From the NCBI GenBank assembly GCA_027920525.1, contig CP115858.1, positions 4,216,001 to 4,280,000 on the forward strand: DNA of 64,000 nt. Direction: 5' to 3'. Source of the DNA: Chryseobacterium daecheongense. Its GTDB lineage: Bacteria; Bacteroidota; Bacteroidia; Flavobacteriales; Weeksellaceae. The notes beneath the pieces are model-generated. The model was not told the DNA's origin, made no database searches, and saw only the letters and a list, made by a program, of their open reading frames with translations. Positions 3,989-46,536 of this stretch are shown one piece after another. Each line of letters opens with the position of its first letter. Within the stretch, counting starts at the first letter, position 1. A program made the position numbers and the translations under genes.

Positions 3989-5770
3989 GTGAAATTACTT
4001 TTTAAAATTATATTACTCATTACCTTGGCAATTGGAAGTTCTTCTTTTGCCCAGGATTCTACGAAGGTTTCTAAAGTACTTAAGTCTGCCTCCAAAATTA
4101 GAAAAGCGGTTGATAATAATGATAATAAAACGGTCGCGGATACCTATGTCAGTATGGCAAATGATTATTACGGTCAGGGAAATTATGCAAAAAGTGAAGA
4201 ATACCTGATAAAAGCAAGGAATCTATACCAAAACCTAAACGATAAAAAGAACCTCGAATTTGTAACCCGAAAGCTCGCGCAGTCCCAGGAAAAACAAAAT
4301 AAAATAAGTCCGGCCATCCTTAACTACAGCAGAGCAGCTGATATCAGCTACTCAAAGGAAAACAAAAGCATCAATACCAACGATGTTACCAGGCTCTCGT
4401 CACCTTCTAAGGAAGAGAGGGCGGAAGCGATCCAAAGCAATATTGATATCAGCAGGAAAGACAATGAAAAAGCAGATCTGGCAGCCAGTTACAGTCAGTT
4501 AGCTGATGTAAACATCCAGCAAAACGATATACCTAAAGCTGAAGCGAATCTTAAAAGTGCTTACACAATTTCCAAAAAGCAGATGGAACCTCAGCAGGCT
4601 CTGGAAATTAATCAGAAGCTGACCAATTTTTATGTTGAGAATAAAGATTTTGATAAAGCCATTGAAGCCAAGAAGAAAGTTTTGAAAGAGGACTTTGTAA
4701 AAGATAATTCTCAGAAAAAGGTAGAACAGATCCAGGAGCTCGCTGATATTTATATAAAAAAAAATGACACAAAAAGTGCTATTGAAACATTGAAAAATGC
4801 CTACAATATTGCACTGGAAAAAGGACATACGCTGGAGGCCCAGAAAAGTGTAAAAAGATTGGACAGTTTGTACAGTGTTTCCGAAAATACAGGTGAATCG
4901 GTAAAGCTATACAGGGATTTTCTCGGACGATTACCGGATCTTGTTTCAAAGGACAGAAGTCTTGTTGATAATAAAATTCTTGAAGACACCGAACAAAGAA
5001 TAGCACAATTAGAAAAAGAAAGGGAATTAAAAGATGAGCTGATCCGCAAAAAGAATGCATTTAATTATAGTCTTATAGGAGCCTTGGTTGTATTGGCAGG
5101 ATTGGCAGGCTTCATTTTATGGACCTTAAAGAAAGTTCAGATCAAAAATAAAAAAATAGCTTTACAATCCCTTCGCCGGGAAATGAATCCACATTTCATT
5201 TTCAACAGTTTAAATAGTGTGAATCAATTCATCGCCACGAATAATGAGTTGGAGGCGAATCAATACCTGACAAAATTTTCGAAACTGATGCGCGGTGTTA
5301 TGGAAAACTCAGCAGAGGATTTTATTCCTTTCCAACAGGAACTCGATCTGTTACAGAACTATCTGGCTCTGGAAAAAACACGGTTTGCAGATAAATTTGA
5401 CTATGAAATTAAGGTGGATGAAAGCCTGAGTTTACAGAGTCTATTGATACCCGGCATGCTGATCCAACCTTTTTTGGAAAATGCGATATGGCATGGGCTA
5501 CGGTATCGTCAGAACAAAGGATTTTTACAACTGAATTTTGAGAAGCAGGGTCAATATATGATAATAACCGTTGATGATAACGGAATAGGTATTGAAGAAA
5601 GTAAAAAATTGAAAACAGAACATCAAAAATCAAGGCAAGGAAGGGGGATGAAAAATACGATGGAAAGAATTACATTGTTAAATGACCTTTATAAACAGGA
5701 CATCCACTGTACCATAACGGATAAAAAGAATGAACAAGGTGTAACTGTACAGATCCGCTATAAATTATAA
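3989..5770 (+). CDS. TPR-containing LytS-type sensor histidine kinase
   Basis: Translation starts at GTG, giving 593 residues with a signal peptide (SSSFAQ). Residues about 45-335 are tetratricopeptide-like helical repeats, probably periplasmic. One transmembrane helix spans about 358-378. The cytoplasmic part has the His_kinase motif MNPHFIFNSLN, with the phospho-accepting His at about 402, followed by an ATPase domain with an N-box (LENAIWHG, about 497) and a G-box (DDNGIG, about 529). This architecture, periplasmic TPR plus LytS-like kinase, is common in Bacteroidota and pairs with LytTR regulators. The cognate regulator is the next gene, 93 bp downstream. The signal sensed is unknown; TPRs suggest protein-protein contact in the periplasm. 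Confidence 0.93.
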   Translation: MKLLFKIILLITLAIGSSSFAQDSTKVSKVLKSASKIRKAVDNNDNKTVADTYVSMANDYYGQGNYAKSEEYLIKARNLYQNLNDKKNLEFVTRKLAQSQEKQNKISPAILNYSRAADISYSKENKSINTNDVTRLSSPSKEERAEAIQSNIDISRKDNEKADLAASYSQLADVNIQQNDIPKAEANLKSAYTISKKQMEPQQALEINQKLTNFYVENKDFDKAIEAKKKVLKEDFVKDNSQKKVEQIQELADIYIKKNDTKSAIETLKNAYNIALEKGHTLEAQKSVKRLDSLYSVSENTGESVKLYRDFLGRLPDLVSKDRSLVDNKILEDTEQRIAQLEKERELKDELIRKKNAFNYSLIGALVVLAGLAGFILWTLKKVQIKNKKIALQSLRREMNPHFIFNSLNSVNQFIATNNELEANQYLTKFSKLMRGVMENSAEDFIPFQQELDLLQNYLALEKTRFADKFDYEIKVDESLSLQSLLIPGMLIQPFLENAIWHGLRYRQNKGFLQLNFEKQGQYMIITVDDNGIGIEESKKLKTEHQKSRQGRGMKNTMERITLLNDLYKQDIHCTITDKKNEQGVTVQIRYKL

Positions 5771-5863
5771 CTTTTTCAGGATTATCTTATCTAATAGACG
5801 TTTGTATTTCAACTAAATATTATATTTTTACATGTAAACCGGACATTATCCGGATCTGTATCA

Positions 5864-6598
5864 ATGAAAATAAAAGCTGTTATCATAGATGATGAGTTTA
5901 TTGCAAGAGAGGTTCTAAGGAATTATCTTACAAAATATTGTCCTCAGGTAGAAATCCTCGGTGAAGCCGAAAATATAAAAGATGCCGTTCCTCTGATCGC
6001 TGAGAAGCTTCCGCAGCTTGTTTTTCTGGATGTGGAAATGCCATTCGGGAATGCTTTTGATGTCTTGGAAGCTACTAAGGATTACACCTATGAAACGATC
6101 TTTATAACTGCTTTTTCTCAATATTCCTTACAGGCTCTTAATAAGTCGGCCAGCTATTATATTTTAAAACCTATAGATATCCAGGAGCTGATTCTTGCCG
6201 TCAATAAAGTAGCAGAAAGCCTTGAAAAAAAGGAAGAGCTGAACCGGAATAAAATACTGTTGGAAAATCTCAAAGTAAAACCTGATAATCAGCAACTTAT
6301 CCTGCCGACATTACAGGGATTTGATGTTGTGAAAACTGAAGAAATAGTAAGACTGCAGGCAGATGGAAATTTTACCCTCGTTTATCTTACTGACGGAACC
6401 AAAAAGATGGTATGCAGATTTTTAAAACATTTTGATGATCTTCTTGAAGCTCCCTTTGTCAGAGTTCATCGTTCACATATCATCAATACAGGTTTTGTTA
6501 AATCATATCACAAAAGCGGGACTGTTACTTTATTGGATGATGCTGAGATTGAGGTTTCAGGGACATTCAAAGAAGCTTTTCTTAAAACCTTTTCTTAG
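5864..6598 (+). CDS. LytTR-family response regulator
   Basis: The 244-residue protein has a receiver domain (residues 1-120) with the acidic pair DD at 9-10, the phospho-acceptor Asp56 in LVFLDVEMP, and the conserved Lys in ILKPID near 105. A LytTR DNA-binding domain occupies about 145-244, with the RVHRSHIIN signature. LytTR proteins insert into successive major grooves and bind paired direct repeats. It is the partner of the upstream kinase. The 21-bp-spaced repeats at 1990 and 3902 are candidate targets. The upstream gap holds TTTG (about 5812) and an AT-rich -7-like stretch, so it may also have its own promoter. A small hairpin, CCGGA with TCCGG, sits just before the start codon. Confidence 0.95.
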   Translation: MKIKAVIIDDEFIAREVLRNYLTKYCPQVEILGEAENIKDAVPLIAEKLPQLVFLDVEMPFGNAFDVLEATKDYTYETIFITAFSQYSLQALNKSASYYILKPIDIQELILAVNKVAESLEKKEELNRNKILLENLKVKPDNQQLILPTLQGFDVVKTEEIVRLQADGNFTLVYLTDGTKKMVCRFLKHFDDLLEAPFVRVHRSHIINTGFVKSYHKSGTVTLLDDAEIEVSGTFKEAFLKTFS

Positions 6599-27465: not shown

Positions 27466-27473
27466 TAGTTTTG
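27466..27473 (+). promoter_or_regulatory. -7 element of queG
   Basis: TAGTTTTG followed by C matches TAnnTTTG and ends 12 bp before the ATG at 27486, leaving only a very short leader. Confidence 0.6.
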
Positions 27474-27485
27474 CAATGGGAAATC

Positions 27486-28433
27486 ATGAATTCAACTGCT
27501 GAAAAATATTCTGAACTGATAAAGTCCAAGGCACAACGTTTTGGATTTCAGAATTGTGGTATCTCCAAAGCTGATTTCCTCGAAGAAGATGCCCGTCATC
27601 TGGAGAAATGGTTAAAGAATAACTTCCATGGGGAAATGAAATACATGGAAAACCATTTTGATAAAAGATTAGATCCCCGATTACTGGTAGAAGGCTCGAA
27701 GTCAGTGATTTCATTATCCTATAACTATTTCCCTGAAGAGAAGCTTTCCACGCTGGAAAACTACAAGATCTCAAAGTATGCATACGCCGAAGATTATCAC
27801 GAGGTAATTAAGGAAATTCTTCGTGAAATGGTGACTGAGCTGCAGGAGGAGATCGGGGAATTCGGATTCAGGGTTTTTGTAGATTCTGCTCCCGTACTTG
27901 AAAGAAGCTGGGCTAGGAAATCCGGAATTGGATGGGTAGGGAAAAATGCCAATCTGATCACGAAACAAAACGGCTCCTTTTATTTTTTAGCGGAGATCAT
28001 TTGCGATCTTGAGCTGATTGCCGATCACGAAACCACCAACCATTGCGGTACCTGCAGAAAATGTATCGATGCTTGTCCTACAGATGCTATCATCTCGGAT
28101 AAAATCGTTGATGGAAGCAAATGCATTTCATATGCTACCATTGAACTGAAAAGCGAAATTCCCGATTATTTCAGGGATAAAATGCAAGATTGGATGTTTG
28201 GCTGTGATATCTGTCAGGATGTTTGCCCTTGGAACCGGTTTTCAGCTCCGAACATGCAGAGCAAATTCAAGCCTAACGATAGCCTTAAAAATTTTAAAAA
28301 AGGTGAATGGAAAGAGCTTACGCAGGAATTATTCTCTGAAATCTTCAGGAAATCGCCTGTAAAAAGAACAAAATATGCAGGCCTGAAAAGAAATATTGAG
28401 TTTTTGGAAAACGGTAGTGATCCTGAATCTTAA
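27486..28433 (+). CDS. queG: epoxyqueuosine reductase
   Basis: QueG performs the last step of queuosine synthesis in tRNA, reducing epoxyqueuosine with cobalamin and two [4Fe-4S] clusters. The 315 residues contain the substrate-proximal [13 protein letters not shown] (about 131), the first cluster [12 protein letters not shown] (about 188) and the second [10 protein letters not shown] (about 240). I chose the ATG that follows the promoter; a TTG 15 bases upstream sits inside the -7 element. Because QueG uses a cobamide, this organism needs B12, which fits the cobalamin riboswitch at 42.4 kb. Confidence 0.95.
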
Positions 28434-40716: not shown

Positions 40717-42129
40717 ATGAAGACGTACAGATATGAGATTTTTACCACTGCTATTGAAGATAAAATAAAGACTGGAATGTTAAAGCCCGGCACCCGTCTA
40801 CCATCTGTGAGAGAGATTAAAGAAAATTATCATCTGAGTACAAGTTCGGTTCAAAGTGGTTATGATCATCTGGTGATGAAAGGATGGGTGAAAAATATTC
40901 CCCGCTCCGGTTATTTTGTAGCAGATGATGTTCCACAAATAAGCAGTGAAAACTTACCACTTTACCCGGTCTCAAAAAATGAAGTTTTCAATAAAAATGT
41001 TGCTCTGATTTCATCAAGAAATAAGCCCTCCGAATATGCCTCATTTAATTCGGCGGCACCTACGGATCTATTGATTCCGCAAAAGCTCATTTTAAAAAAA
41101 ATGCAGAAAGTGATCCGCGAAAAAGGGACTTCACTTCTTCGCTACTATCCTGCTAACGGGTCTTTAGAACTAAGAGATCTTATCGCTAAACGTACTTCTC
41201 AATATGGATACACATTGCATCCTGAAAAATTAATCATTACTGATGGAGCATTGCAGGCACTTTACATTGCCCTGGCATCTGTGACGAATGCCGGTGACCT
41301 CATTGCTGTTGAAAGTCCGTGCGTTTTTTCTGTTTTGGAAGTAATTGCCAATCTGAAACTTAAAGTCATAGAAATTCCTGTCCGGGATAGAAATGGTTTT
41401 GATACGGCATATTTAAAAAAGATATGCGCGGATCATGATATCAGATCTCTTGTAGTTACACCTAATTTTCACAATCCTACAGGAATTCTGATGTCGGAAA
41501 CTGTAAAAAAAGAACTGCTTTCCATTGCGGAAGAATATGAGTTTCCGATTATCGAAAATGATATTTACGGAGACCTTTATTTTGGCAATGAGAGACCTTC
41601 GGGGATCGGGAGTTTTGATACCGGTGGTTGGGTAATAACTTTTTCTTCTTTTTCCAAAACATTGGCTCCCGGTATTCGCCTGGGATGGATGCATTCGGGA
41701 AAATTCCATGCGGAAGCAGAGAGAACCAGGTTTGCCTTAGGAAGATCTGTTGCTCCGGTATATCAGGAACTGGTCATTAAACTGCTTGAAGACCATAGCT
41801 ATGATAAACATTTGCGTTCATTTCGTAAACAGCTATATAAGCAGGCCAAAGATGTGTTAGAGATATTAAAAAGCCATTTTCCGGATGGGGCTTATTTTGA
41901 AGATCCTCAGGGTGGATACAGCATTTGGGGAAGTTTGCCTGAAGGAGTGGATATGGAGAAATTTTACGCTTATTGCGAACAGCAAAGAATATTATTTACT
42001 CCCGGAGAAATTTTTAGCCTTACCGATCAGTTCAGGTACCATTTCAGGATTATTTTTGCAGAACGTATCACATCCCATAGCCTGTTGGCTTTGCAAAATA
42101 TAGGTGAGAATTTGAAACAGATATTGTGA
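40717..42129 (+). CDS. MocR-type regulator (GntR wHTH fused to aminotransferase fold)
   Basis: The 470-residue protein has a GntR winged helix at residues 1-75 (GTRLPSVREIKENYHLSTSSV) and a fold-type I aminotransferase domain at about 105-470. The latter shows YYPANGSLELRDLI, the PNFHNPTG motif, the pyridoxal-phosphate Lys in SFSKTLAPGIRLGW (about 314) and a final RIIFAE. MocR proteins use PLP or an amino-compound imine as effector rather than catalysing a reaction. Targets often include PLP synthesis or amino acid export; here the only adjacent target is the divergent acetyltransferase-like gene. Confidence 0.93.
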   Translation: MKTYRYEIFTTAIEDKIKTGMLKPGTRLPSVREIKENYHLSTSSVQSGYDHLVMKGWVKNIPRSGYFVADDVPQISSENLPLYPVSKNEVFNKNVALISSRNKPSEYASFNSAAPTDLLIPQKLILKKMQKVIREKGTSLLRYYPANGSLELRDLIAKRTSQYGYTLHPEKLIITDGALQALYIALASVTNAGDLIAVESPCVFSVLEVIANLKLKVIEIPVRDRNGFDTAYLKKICADHDIRSLVVTPNFHNPTGILMSETVKKELLSIAEEYEFPIIENDIYGDLYFGNERPSGIGSFDTGGWVITFSSFSKTLAPGIRLGWMHSGKFHAEAERTRFALGRSVAPVYQELVIKLLEDHSYDKHLRSFRKQLYKQAKDVLEILKSHFPDGAYFEDPQGGYSIWGSLPEGVDMEKFYAYCEQQRILFTPGEIFSLTDQFRYHFRIIFAERITSHSLLALQNIGENLKQIL

Positions 42130-42200: not shown

Positions 42201-42410
42201 ATCGTGTTTGTCGGATTTTTTTGCAAGTGATTTTTACATAATCAAGATCATTTTAATTATGATTTTGAAAATTGAAAATATATTTATAATGCCTATTTTC
42301 AAAGAATTACGAATTCCTAACTGTTGTTCGTAAATAATTATTTTCGTGTTTCAATAAAATACCTATATTTACCACCAAGGAGTTCATTTATACTTCTTTA
42401 TCAACCGGAA

Positions 42411-42570
42411 TTGGTTACACTTAGCTGTGAATTAAAAGGGAATCGTGTGTGAATCACGAACTGTCGCGCAACTGTAAGTAACACTCAAAAGGTTTTTATC
42501 AATCAGGGTTCACTGTTCTTTTTTTGAATGGGAAGGACGATAAAAATTGTTACAAGTCAGGAGACCTGCC
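42411..42570 (+). promoter_or_regulatory. cobalamin (AdoCbl) riboswitch
   Basis: The conserved order of the B12 aptamer is visible. It starts with GGTTACAC, then AAAAGGGAA followed by a hairpin TCGTG with CACGA, then the near-invariant GCAACTGTAAGT (about 42468), GGGAAGGA (about 42530), and finally the B12 box GTCAGGAGACCTGCC (42556-42570), which matches the consensus. A possible promoter (TATATTTA at 42364) precedes it. The next genes, 420 bp downstream on the same strand, are prpB, prpC and prpD. Ligand binding usually lowers expression, so the methylcitrate cycle should be reduced when B12 is plentiful. Confidence 0.93.
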
Positions 42571-42992
42571 TATTTCGAATTGACGATGCTTTCGCGATCT
42601 GAAGCTTATAGTCAGGTATGATACGATGTGATAACAGTGCCCGATATCTTTTTGTGTACATTATCATTTTTAAGAAATGGTTTACAGGTTTTGCTTTTCA
42701 GGGCTGTATCATTTCTACAGCTTGCTCGTATTAGTCCCTTTCCATAATTTTCTCTTTTACAAAGTATTGTGAAGTTTTATCAGCACCTTTTATATTGATT
42801 TATAAGCATTACAGGCTGATGGCAGCAATCTTTGACCGGATTGTTATTACATGAAAATGTAATGAGGCTGTTCAACCATTCATTAAGGTTTATAGGTCGT
42901 TTAATTATTTTAATCATTTAAAGAATAATCTTTCTTTAAATTGTTGGAAGAATGTGAGTTAAAATACATCAAAACGAACAATAATATTAAAG
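42571..42992 (+). other. long leader between the riboswitch and prpB
   Basis: This 420-bp stretch has no recognisable gene. A small hairpin, GCTGTA with TACAGC, lies at about 42705-42723. A 31-codon frame (42677-42772) rich in Phe, Tyr, Leu and Val encodes something like a short membrane peptide, but nothing else supports it. I cannot point to the expression platform: there is no clear T-tailed terminator, and the prpB start is far from the aptamer. An inverted repeat of TTTAAAGA with TCTTT-TAAA occurs near 42917-42940. Confidence 0.4.
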
Positions 42993-43901
42993 ATGAGTAA
43001 AAATGTAAGTCTAGAGTCTGCCGGATTACGTTTCCGGGAGACGATGCAAAAAGAAAACCCTCTTCAGATTGTCGGGGCTATCAATGCCAATCATGCATTG
43101 CTGGCGCAGCAAGCAGGATTCAATGCTATTTATCTTTCCGGAGGAGGAGTTGCTGCAGGATCGTTGGGAATTCCGGATCTGGGAATTACGACCCTTGAGG
43201 ATGTTCTGATCGATATTCAACGAATAACCAATGTATGTGATTTACCTCTATTGGTGGATGTAGATACGGGGTTTGGTCCTTCGGCATTCAACGTAGCAAG
43301 AACTGTAAAATCATTAATTAAAGCCGGAGCAGGTGCTTTGCATATTGAAGACCAGGTGGGAGCGAAACGTTGTGGGCACCGTCCAGGTAAAGAAGTGGTA
43401 AGCAAAGAGGAAATGGTAGACCGTTTGAAGGCTGCTGTTGATGCTCGGACGGATGAAAATTTTGTGATCGGGGCACGTACTGATGCTTTTGCCAATGAAG
43501 GGCTTGAAAAAACATTGGAAAGGGCTGTTGCCTATAAAGAAGCCGGAGCAGATTTCATCTTTGCGGAGGCTGTTCCTGATTTAAGCTATTATCAAAAGTT
43601 TGTAGACGCTACAGGTATTCCTGTACTGGCCAATATTACAGAATTCGGAATGATTAAAATGTATACTGCTGATGAACTGAAAGATGCGGGAGTCGGTTTG
43701 ATTTTATATCCCCTTTCTGCTTTCCGGGCGGCAAATAAGGCAGCACTGAATGTTTACGAGCATATCCGGAAAGATGGAACCCAGGCTCATGTAATTGATA
43801 CCATGCAGACCCGGGAAGAGCTTTACAAAAGTATTGGATACCATGATTACGAACAAAAATTAGATAACCTATTTAAACAGAACAAGAATGTCAATGAATA
43901 A
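42993..43901 (+). CDS. prpB: methylisocitrate lyase
   Basis: PrpB cleaves 2-methylisocitrate to pyruvate and succinate, the last step of the methylcitrate cycle. The 302 residues show the lyase-family features: [11 protein letters not shown] with a metal-binding Asp near 88, the catalytic signature [10 protein letters not shown] (about 123), and the substrate contact ARTDA (about 163). The length is standard. It overlaps prpC by 14 bp, indicating a coupled operon under the upstream cobalamin riboswitch. Confidence 0.95.
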
Positions 43902-45039
43902 CGAACCAACATTTAAGCCTAAGAAAAGTGTAGCGCTTTCCGGGGTTGCCGCAGGTAATACTGCACTTTGCAGTGTAGGAAAAAGTGGAAATGATCTCCA
44001 TTACAGAGGTTATGACATTTTGGACCTCGCAGAAAAAGCAGAATTTGAGGAGGTAGCCTATCTTCTTATTTACGGACAGCTACCAACAGGAGCCCAGTTA
44101 AAAAACTATAAAGCCAAATTGAAATCACTGAGAGGATTACCACATTCTGTAAGAAATATCCTGAAAAGTATTCCTGCAGCTGCCCATCCGATGGATGTAA
44201 TGCGCTCCATGGTTTCAGCAATTGGAAGTATTCAGCCTGAAAAAGACGATCATAATGTGGCGGGAGCAAGGGATATTGCAGACAAATTACTGGCATCATT
44301 CAGTTCCGGACTTTTGTATTGGTATCATTATACGCATAACGGAAAAGAGATTGATGTAGAAACTGATGATGATACTATTGGGGGCCATTTTCTTCACCTG
44401 TTGCATGGTAAAAAAGCACCCGATTCCTGGGTGAAGGCAATGGAAATCTCTCTTAATCTGTATGCAGAGCATGAATTTAACGCTTCCACTTTTACTGCGC
44501 GTGTTATTGCGGGAACCTCTTCAGATTTTTATTCCTGTATAACGGGAGCTATCGGCGCTTTAAGAGGTCCTAAACATGGTGGGGCGAATGAAGTGGCTTT
44601 CGAAATTCAGAGTCGTTATAATTCCCCGGATGAAGCGGAAGAGGATATCAGAAGGCGTATTGGTAACAAAGAAGTAATTATTGGATTTGGACATCCGGTG
44701 TACACTATATCGGATCCGCGAAACGTAGTGATAAAAAAAGTAGCGAAAGAACTTTCCGAAGAGGCAGGAGATATGTTGCTTTATCATATTGCTGAAAGGC
44801 TGGAAACCATAATGTGGGAAGAAAAGAAAATGTTCCCTAACCTGGATTGGTTCTCAGCGGTTTCGTATCATCTGATGGGAGTACCAACCCTTATGTTCAC
44901 TCCGTTATTTGTTATTTCAAGAGTCACCGGATGGAGTGCCCACATCATTGAACAAAGGCAGGATGGCAAAATTATCCGTCCAAGTGCCAATTACACCGGG
45001 CCTGAAAATAAAGAATTTGTTCCTATCACAAGCAGATAA
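43888..45039 (+). CDS. prpC: 2-methylcitrate synthase
   Basis: PrpC condenses propionyl-CoA with oxaloacetate. The 383 residues belong to the citrate synthase family, with the catalytic His in GPKHGGANE (about 231), the second His in GFGHPVY (about 269) and an Asp in the C-terminal part. Sequence near residue 15 ([17 protein letters not shown]) and the neighbours prpB and prpD favour methylcitrate over citrate synthase. A second in-frame ATG two codons downstream could be the start. Confidence 0.93.
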
Positions 45040-45084
45040 TACAATCAATTTAAAATATAAACTAATTAAACTTAAAACAAAAAG

Positions 45085-46536
45085 ATGTCATCACACATTT
45101 CAAATGAAAGACCACAACCGGATCAGGTATTAACAGATATTGCAGATTACGTATTGAACTTCGAAATTAAAAACGACCTGGCCTGGAAAACGGCCCACTA
45201 CTGCCTTTTAGATACTATTGGATGTGGATTGGAAGCTTTAACTTATCCTGCATGTACGAAATTATTGGGACCTATTGTAAAAGGAACTGTTGTTCCGAAT
45301 GGTGCAAAAGTGCCGGGAACTCAGTTTCAACTGGATCCGGTTCAGGCGGCTTTCAATATTGGAGCTATTATTCGTTGGCTGGATTTTAATGATACATGGC
45401 TAGCTGCAGAATGGGGACATCCTTCTGATAACTTAGGAGGAATTTTAGCAACCGCTGACTGGTTGTCCAGAACCCATATTGCAGAAGGAAAAGCTCCTTT
45501 GAAAATGAAGCAGGTGCTGGAAGCCATGATCATGGCGCATGAAATTCAGGGAGTAATTGCTCTTGAAAATTCATTCAACAGAGTAGGTTTAGATCACGTT
45601 TTATTAGTGAAGTTGGCTTCTACGGCCGTTGTAGGGAAATTAATTGGATTAACCCGTGATGAGCTGATCAATGCGATCTCATTGGCCTTTGTGGACGGAC
45701 AATCTTTAAGAACATACCGTCACGCTCCTAATACAGGAAGTCGTAAGTCATGGGCAGCCGGAGATGCCACTTCCAGAGCTGTGCGTTTAGCATTAATTGC
45801 CAAAACCGGCGAAATGGGTTATCCTTCGGTACTTACGGCTAAAATATGGGGATTCTATGATGTTTCATTTAAAGGAAATGAATTCAAATTTCAGCGTGAA
45901 TACGGTTCTTATGTAATGGAGAATGTATTGTTTAAGATCTCTTTCCCTGCTGAATTCCATTCACAAACAGCCGTGGAAGCAGCTATGACATTGCACCATC
46001 AATTAAAAGGGATGGGTAAAACAACTGAAGATATTAAAAAAATTACTATTCGTACGCATGAAGCGGCTATCAGGATTATCGATAAAAAAGGTCCCCTGAA
46101 TAATCCTGCAGACAGAGATCATGCGATTCAATATATGGTAGCGGTACCTCTTATCTTCGGAAGGCTGACTGCTGCCGACTATGAAGATAATATTGCTTCA
46201 GATCCAAGGATTGATATTCTTCGTGATAAAATTGAATGTATCGAGGAGGTTCAGTTTACCACTGATTACCATGATCCTGAAAAACGTTCCATTGCCAATG
46301 CATTAACAGTAGAGTTAAATGACGGAACTGTTTTGGAAGAAGTAAAAGTAGAGTATCCTATAGGACATAAACGAAGAAGGGATGAAGGAATTCCTGAACT
46401 GATTAAAAAGTATAAATTGAATCTCGCCCGTATATTCCCGGAAAAGCAGCAAAGACTTGTATTGGAAAATTCTCTGGAGTATGATAAGCTGGTTAACCTC
46501 AATGTTAATGAGTTTGTGGATCTTTTGGTTATTTAA
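45085..46536 (+). CDS. prpD: 2-methylcitrate dehydratase (MmgE/PrpD family)
   Basis: PrpD removes water from 2-methylcitrate without an iron-sulfur cluster. The 483 residues start with a short tail and then the family segment [23 protein letters not shown]. Typical marks are [20 protein letters not shown] (about 93), [11 protein letters not shown] (about 227) and [14 protein letters not shown] (about 288). No acnD, prpF or aconitase gene follows, so methylaconitate is handled by PrpD itself or by an aconitase elsewhere. Confidence 0.94.

Follow-up and report, generated by a model that had tools for sequence, protein, structure and literature searches.

A cobalamin (vitamin B12) riboswitch stands in front of prpBCD, the methylcitrate cycle operon, in Chryseobacterium daecheongense, within the 64,000 nucleotides (nt) of contig CP115858.1 (assembly GCA_027920525.1, positions 4,216,001 to 4,280,000 of the forward strand) that we refer to as the window. 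This is a real, conserved cobalamin riboswitch on the methylcitrate operon, and it represents a new form of a known regulatory theme. We consider it very probable that this RNA turns prpBCD off when cobalamin is plentiful and on when it is scarce, so that cofactor supply would decide whether propionyl-CoA goes to methylmalonyl-CoA mutase or to PrpBCD. An earlier note on the window had proposed such a switch between two propionate routes, and those parts of the proposal that can be tested on sequence are largely borne out by the high-scoring aptamer, the adjacent prpBCD genes, the mutase and epimerase encoded in the same genome, the conservation of the arrangement, and its co-occurrence with the mutase.

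The riboswitch, the operon, and the B12-dependent route

The aptamer lies at 42395-42587 on the forward strand, where cmscan gives a match to RF00174 (96.3 bits, E 9.8e-23) that covers model positions 1-189 of 189 and far exceeds the gathering score of 31.5, and which is the sole match above gathering in an Rfam scan of the whole window. The earlier note had called the aptamer nearly consensus; the start that it gave, 42411, is 16 nt inside the true start at 42395. When the Rfam structure was mapped from the window onto an alignment of 20 prp leaders, 76.6% of cells were paired, seven pairs were changed on both sides, and 22 cells were doubly changed, compared to a mean of 9.0 in shuffled alignments (0 of 500 shuffles as high), with further pair types reaching a level equalled in 33 of 500 shuffles. 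Eleven of these pairs do not form standard base pairs in the window itself, and across the alignment pairing is poor (0-31% of cells) in mapped helices 7, 9, and 10. At the level of this sequence comparison, paired elements of the aptamer are backed by compensatory change.

Overlapping the 3′ end of the aptamer is a P13-type hairpin at 42580-42615 (+), formed by UUGAC/GUCAG outside and GCUU/AAGC inside, for which 98.9% of cells are paired in the same 20 leaders, compared to 12-56% for controls in which the pairing was slid. Covariation is not demonstrable for this hairpin (48 of 500 shuffles as high) because its sequence, near-invariant across 31 leaders, varies too little. By analogy with known cobalamin riboswitches, we take this hairpin to be the likely kissing-loop partner of L5.

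The three genes that follow on the same strand were named in the earlier note as prpB, prpC, and prpD, and all three score above NCBIfam equivalog cut-offs, by which we assigned their identities: methylisocitrate lyase (prpB, 42993-43901, NF008455 512.1 bits and TIGR02317 412 bits), 2-methylcitrate synthase (prpC, 43888-45039, NF009006 699.5 bits), and 2-methylcitrate dehydratase (prpD, 45085-46536, NF006943 879.3 bits). No open reading frame of at least 100 amino acids (aa) was found between the aptamer and prpB on either strand, and no prpE directly follows prpD, since the next listed downstream reading frames are on the reverse strand. The PrpB in the window and its counterpart in Chryseobacterium sp. 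LAM-KRS1 share 99% identity.

The host genome (4.86 Mb, one contig) also encodes the other route. A search for the mutase and the epimerase had been suggested in the earlier note, which held that a genome with no mutase would speak against the switch; this search recovered a canonical MutB of 707 aa (NF006944, 1249.8 bits), a MutA-like protein of 388 aa that falls below the TIGR00642 cut-off, and a methylmalonyl-CoA epimerase (132.6 bits, cut-off 114.95). Besides MutB and the MutA-like protein, the B12-dependent proteins recovered are a 1136-aa frame, called IcmF-type from its length and domains, and a MetH-type methionine synthase of 887 aa. Five RF00174 matches are present in this genome: two precede TonB receptors related to BtuB (L001 and L003), and the other three precede a hotdog acyl-CoA thioesterase (L002), prpBCD (L004), and metE (L005).

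Conservation of the arrangement and its co-occurrence with the mutase

The arrangement was followed in two sets of genomes that partly share members, a named-genome set of 80 prpB loci and a genus and family survey, using a riboswitch detector (R1) built on an RNAalifold structure rather than on the true aptamer fold, with 11 of the 80 loci checked against Rfam. We found a riboswitch on the same strand before prpB in 21 of the 80 named loci, i.e., 17 from Chryseobacterium, three from Elizabethkingia, and one from Pedobacter cryoconitis M2T3; in five further loci (L047, L050, L052, L053, and L070) the match lies elsewhere or points away, and several minus-strand regular-expression matches were discarded as reverse overlaps of the aptamer. 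In the survey, 27 of 148 Chryseobacterium genomes contain prpB, and all 27 of these loci carry the riboswitch. Among 120 genomes surveyed across the family, prpB scores above cut-off in nine, six with the riboswitch and three without (L095, L098, and L101). Over the surveys as a whole, 32 of 35 prpB rows, or 31 of 34 distinct places, carry the riboswitch. Four of five Elizabethkingia prpB loci have the riboswitch. Only 5 of 395 genomes across the phylum contain a prpB match at E <= 1e-70, and prp is present in so few genomes that we class it as an accessory operon. Rows from distant families lie close together on the PrpB tree, which suggests transfer, though many of its forks are weak.

The riboswitch-prpB unit goes with the presence of the mutase. 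For this comparison the genomes of the 80 loci were searched with PF01642 (47 genomes) or with the MutB protein (40 genomes), eight of them by both, giving 79 in total with L071 left out. Where the sole match was of the IcmF type (in most cases a frame of 1100-1170 aa with about 36% identity to MutB), the genome was scored as having no large subunit. Four Myroides genomes, in each of which two shorter proteins match PF01642, were scored likewise; among these, only L037 was also searched with MutB. With this scoring, the mutase large subunit is present in 20 of 21 prp genomes with the riboswitch, compared to 2 of 58 without it, namely Hydrotalea sandarakina and Ilyomonas limi (Fisher p 1.8e-15, a value uncorrected for kinship). 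Outside the Weeksellaceae, P. cryoconitis M2T3 combines an intact riboswitch with a 515-aa protein of the mutase N-terminal type, which is not of the fused type, is 49% identical to MutB, and scores 752.7 bits with TIGR00641 (510 residues scanned). In Ilyomonas limi, which has prp and no riboswitch, a mutase-type gene is split over two frames (L196, G150:C13 93763-95085).

Decayed remnants of the riboswitch were found before prpB in two genomes. In P. cryoconitis S3M1 (L033) the remnant at 5689-5847 scores 44.4 bits, the central part of the aptamer is missing, and nhmmer picks up each half separately, at E 3.6e-13 and 0.0017 (988 kb); in Emticicia agri (L072) the remnant at 5801-5878 scores 22.4 bits, at E 8.3e-5 (89 kb), and nhmmer recovers it at E 0.00018 (988 kb). 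Both fail the Rfam gathering score. Neither genome yielded a mutase large subunit: an IcmF-type match is all that S3M1 has, and nothing in E. agri matches PF01642. Such decay would be expected if only a cell with the other route had a use for the switch. In most of the remaining prp genomes that lack the mutase, there is no trace of a remnant. A third remnant, suspected in Mucilaginibacter SG564, is unsupported (0.1 bits), and Elizabethkingia argenteiflava, which has prp, no riboswitch, and no PF01642 match, was rejected as a clean case of loss, its prpB grouping apart from that of other Elizabethkingia and possibly being a separate acquisition. By eye, we also noted CRISPR-like direct repeats upstream of the E. 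agri prp locus (L072, about 5350-5640).

The leader, the proposed mechanism, and other explanations

Upstream of the aptamer, a putative promoter -7 element, TATATTTAC, is located at 42364-42372 (+) and is kept in the aligned Chryseobacterium leaders. The same alignment position reads TATATTTAG in three Elizabethkingia leaders, and no -7-like element is present at that place in the Pedobacter leader L036. We read TATATTTAC as a match to the flavobacterial -7 consensus, which would make it the probable promoter and set the presumed start of transcription. A single transcript would carry both the aptamer and prpBCD; ligand binding, the ligand being likely adenosylcobalamin, would close P1/P3, L5 would dock on the loop of the hairpin at 42580-42615, and the bound form would lower expression of the downstream prpBCD genes, at transcription or at translation. 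That B12 would repress, rather than activate, prpBCD is again a reading of the sequence, supported in that the metE leader has the same aptamer-hairpin design. The reverse, an ON switch in which B12 activates prpBCD, is very improbable: nothing here is in its favor, beyond the fact that unusual arrangements exist, such as the antisense case in Listeria cited in PMC11575231.

Several observations weigh against this repression of prpBCD from the aptamer. The start of prpB is about 400 nt 3′ of the aptamer, and the intervening leader from the P13 hairpin to prpB (42622-42992, +, about 370 nt) is poorly conserved. No intrinsic terminator was found on the forward strand of the leader, and a Rho site was considered and rejected, as the C-over-G signal in the window is at background (9, with a control mean of 9.3 and a 95% level of 17), such a signal reaching at least the 95% level in 4 of 21 leaders (L018, L019, L021, and L029). 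In addition, a promoter-like TATTTTTG is present 3′ of the aptamer, about 380 nt before prpB, in the relatives L026, L027, and L031. Two further leads on the mechanism were dropped: folded alone, the leader is no more stable than its shuffles, and an anti-aptamer pairing suggested by folding, of ACCUG (42564-42568) with CAGGU (42613-42617), has no equivalent in the Pedobacter leader, which lacks CAGGU. The metabolic side has its own weak point, in that PF01039 has three matches in the host genome, two of which (305 and 322 aa) we took for acetyl-CoA carboxylase subunits, leaving one 542-aa protein as the only acyl-CoA carboxylase beta subunit of its kind. The best solved chain for this protein is named propionyl-CoA carboxylase beta (524.9 bits), AccD1 and methylcrotonyl-CoA carboxylase (507.5 bits) come next, and other propionyl-CoA carboxylase beta chains score at most 273 bits; either propionyl-CoA or methylcrotonyl-CoA could be its substrate, and it is thus a candidate for the carboxylase that would make methylmalonyl-CoA. 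Some genomes also depart from the co-occurrence: the draft of Chryseobacterium sp. ISL-6 has the riboswitch with MutA-like and IcmF-type matches and no MutB found, and in H. sandarakina prp stands together with a mutase-type protein but has no riboswitch. Finally, only two supported independent pairs can be drawn on the gene tree, and although these are concordant in nearly all of 200 pairings, they give p 0.5; six independent pairs are available when all branches of the gene tree are taken.

The length and poor conservation of the leader and its missing terminator are also what would be expected if the riboswitch, though real, controlled no more than a short leader RNA or peptide, with prpB served by a promoter of its own within the 370 nt. 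An 11-codon reading frame, a possible leader peptide, starts within the P13 hairpin (42586-42621, +), and its start and stop are identical in all 31 listed Weeksellaceae leaders, a conservation of limited weight because the RNA itself is constrained in that hairpin. The element TAnnTTTG occurs in 5 of 21 leaders, in three of which its position is similar, some 380 nt before prpB. However, TAnnTTTG is absent from the 720 nt before prpB in the other 16 of the 21 leaders, that of the window among them, no second promoter was recognized in the window leader at 42622-42992, and the aptamer-prpB unit is kept at every one of the 27 Chryseobacterium loci and outside the family. We therefore regard a separate promoter for prpB as quite unlikely. 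An AUG within the P13 hairpin is common to the prp and metE leaders (in metE, L005 at about 1685), and in the two BtuB leaders of this genome (L001 and L003) short frames read by eye overlap the start of the receptor. A relay through leader peptides was set aside, as the short frames of the BtuB leaders are not kept among the relatives listed.

It could also be argued that the co-occurrence with the mutase reflects shared ancestry only, Chryseobacterium and Elizabethkingia possessing both by chance and the riboswitch having been inherited or transferred with no selection for a switch between mutase and prp. The small number of supported independent pairs favors this, as does the finding that a MutB match at E <= 1e-200 is present in all 148 Chryseobacterium genomes (at least two of them partial, G203 and G224), so that the genus itself offers no discrimination. 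Against it, P. cryoconitis M2T3 and S3M1 differ from each other in both features, and the two remnants lie in genomes where no large subunit was found, which suggests that the riboswitch loses its function when there is no mutase. On balance we consider shared ancestry alone unlikely, though it deserves to be kept in view, and we favor a B12-responsive switch between the two routes.

Other B12-related genes and relation to known systems

Reading the gene downstream of 44 RF00174 places in 13 other Chryseobacterium genomes, we identified a BtuB-like receptor at 13, the thioesterase at 13, metE at nine, the second receptor at six, a secreted protein with a Por tail at two, and prpB at one. The 127-aa hotdog acyl-CoA thioesterase is thus preceded by a riboswitch in all 14 Chryseobacterium genomes examined, host included, and the protein is 92-95% identical among them (L002:1501-2175 in the host; L150, L153, L155, L161, L165, L167, L170, L172, L176, L182, L185, L186, and L227). 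At 20 riboswitch places in other genera no downstream gene matches the thioesterase, and 5 of these 20 match none of the five reference proteins. It is possible that this thioesterase relieves a build-up of propionyl- or methylmalonyl-CoA when the mutase stalls. We tentatively suggest, at slightly less than even confidence, that Chryseobacterium has a B12-scarcity programme run by one type of sensor, with riboswitches on prpBCD and on a relief-valve thioesterase, and with the prp riboswitch kept only while the mutase is present and decaying once it is lost. The secreted Por_Secre_tail protein follows a riboswitch in two Chryseobacterium genomes (L160:361-1482 and L178:364-1470, the Pfam scan covering L160 only), and a protein after a riboswitch in another genus (L212) has by eye a similar N-terminus; we regard the Por_Secre_tail protein as a candidate for cobamide capture.

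Elsewhere in the window, the queG gene reported in the earlier note was recovered at 27471-28433 (TIGR00276, 338.2 bits, cut-off 200), and the epoxyqueuosine reductase that it encodes is likely a further cobamide user. The gene 5′ of the riboswitch, ending at 42129, encodes a MocR-like regulator whose best NCBIfam match is below cut-off.

Regulation of a prp operon by B12 has a precedent in Mycobacterium tuberculosis, where, according to PMC10924821, PMC12713380, and PMC4428469, B12 represses prpR-prpDC and propionate is known to be used by either of the two routes. The likeness extends to the proteins, PrpD and PrpC being absent there when B12 is added, with the methylmalonyl route and the methylcitrate cycle serving as alternatives; by contrast, the M. 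tuberculosis riboswitches described there are on metE, ppe2, and rpfB and not on prp (PMC12713380; metE and PPE2 also in PMC4428469). An analogy in RNA terms is metE, where cobalamin represses the B12-independent isozyme in genomes that encode both isozymes (PMC2211319 and PMC9600662). The earlier note had pointed to such riboswitches on B12-independent isozymes as known, in agreement with those papers and with PMC3766115, and the host genome has its own metE case. The prp and metE riboswitches belong to the same RNA family; however, metE encodes an isozyme of one reaction, whereas prpBCD encodes another pathway, with other intermediates and products. PrpBCD, being named for other reactions, are not isozymes of a B12-dependent enzyme; they form an alternative pathway that would behave as such isozymes do, and the B12-dependent counterpart is encoded in the same genome.

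PMC3766115, a survey of RNA-motif regulons, gives three classes of target for cobalamin riboswitches: synthesis of B12, transport of B12 and cobalt, and isozymes of B12-dependent enzymes. Its main text mentions neither "methylcitrate" nor "propionate". Xylanibacter ruminicola, also of the Bacteroidota, resembles the present case in that its genome combines cobalamin riboswitches with a pathway for propionate, and differs from it in that, as far as the available text of PMC11575231 goes, none of its four riboswitches is near propionate genes. Our literature search found no published riboswitch directly on prp, and as subscription journals were mostly outside its coverage, such an absence is unproven.

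The case is directly testable, and it comes with riboswitches that have decayed naturally where no mutase was found. A sensor on a whole alternative pathway would set by cofactor supply how propionyl-CoA carbon enters central metabolism, as pyruvate plus succinate or as succinyl-CoA, and the B12 available in the habitat is accordingly predicted to change how these bacteria handle propionyl-CoA.

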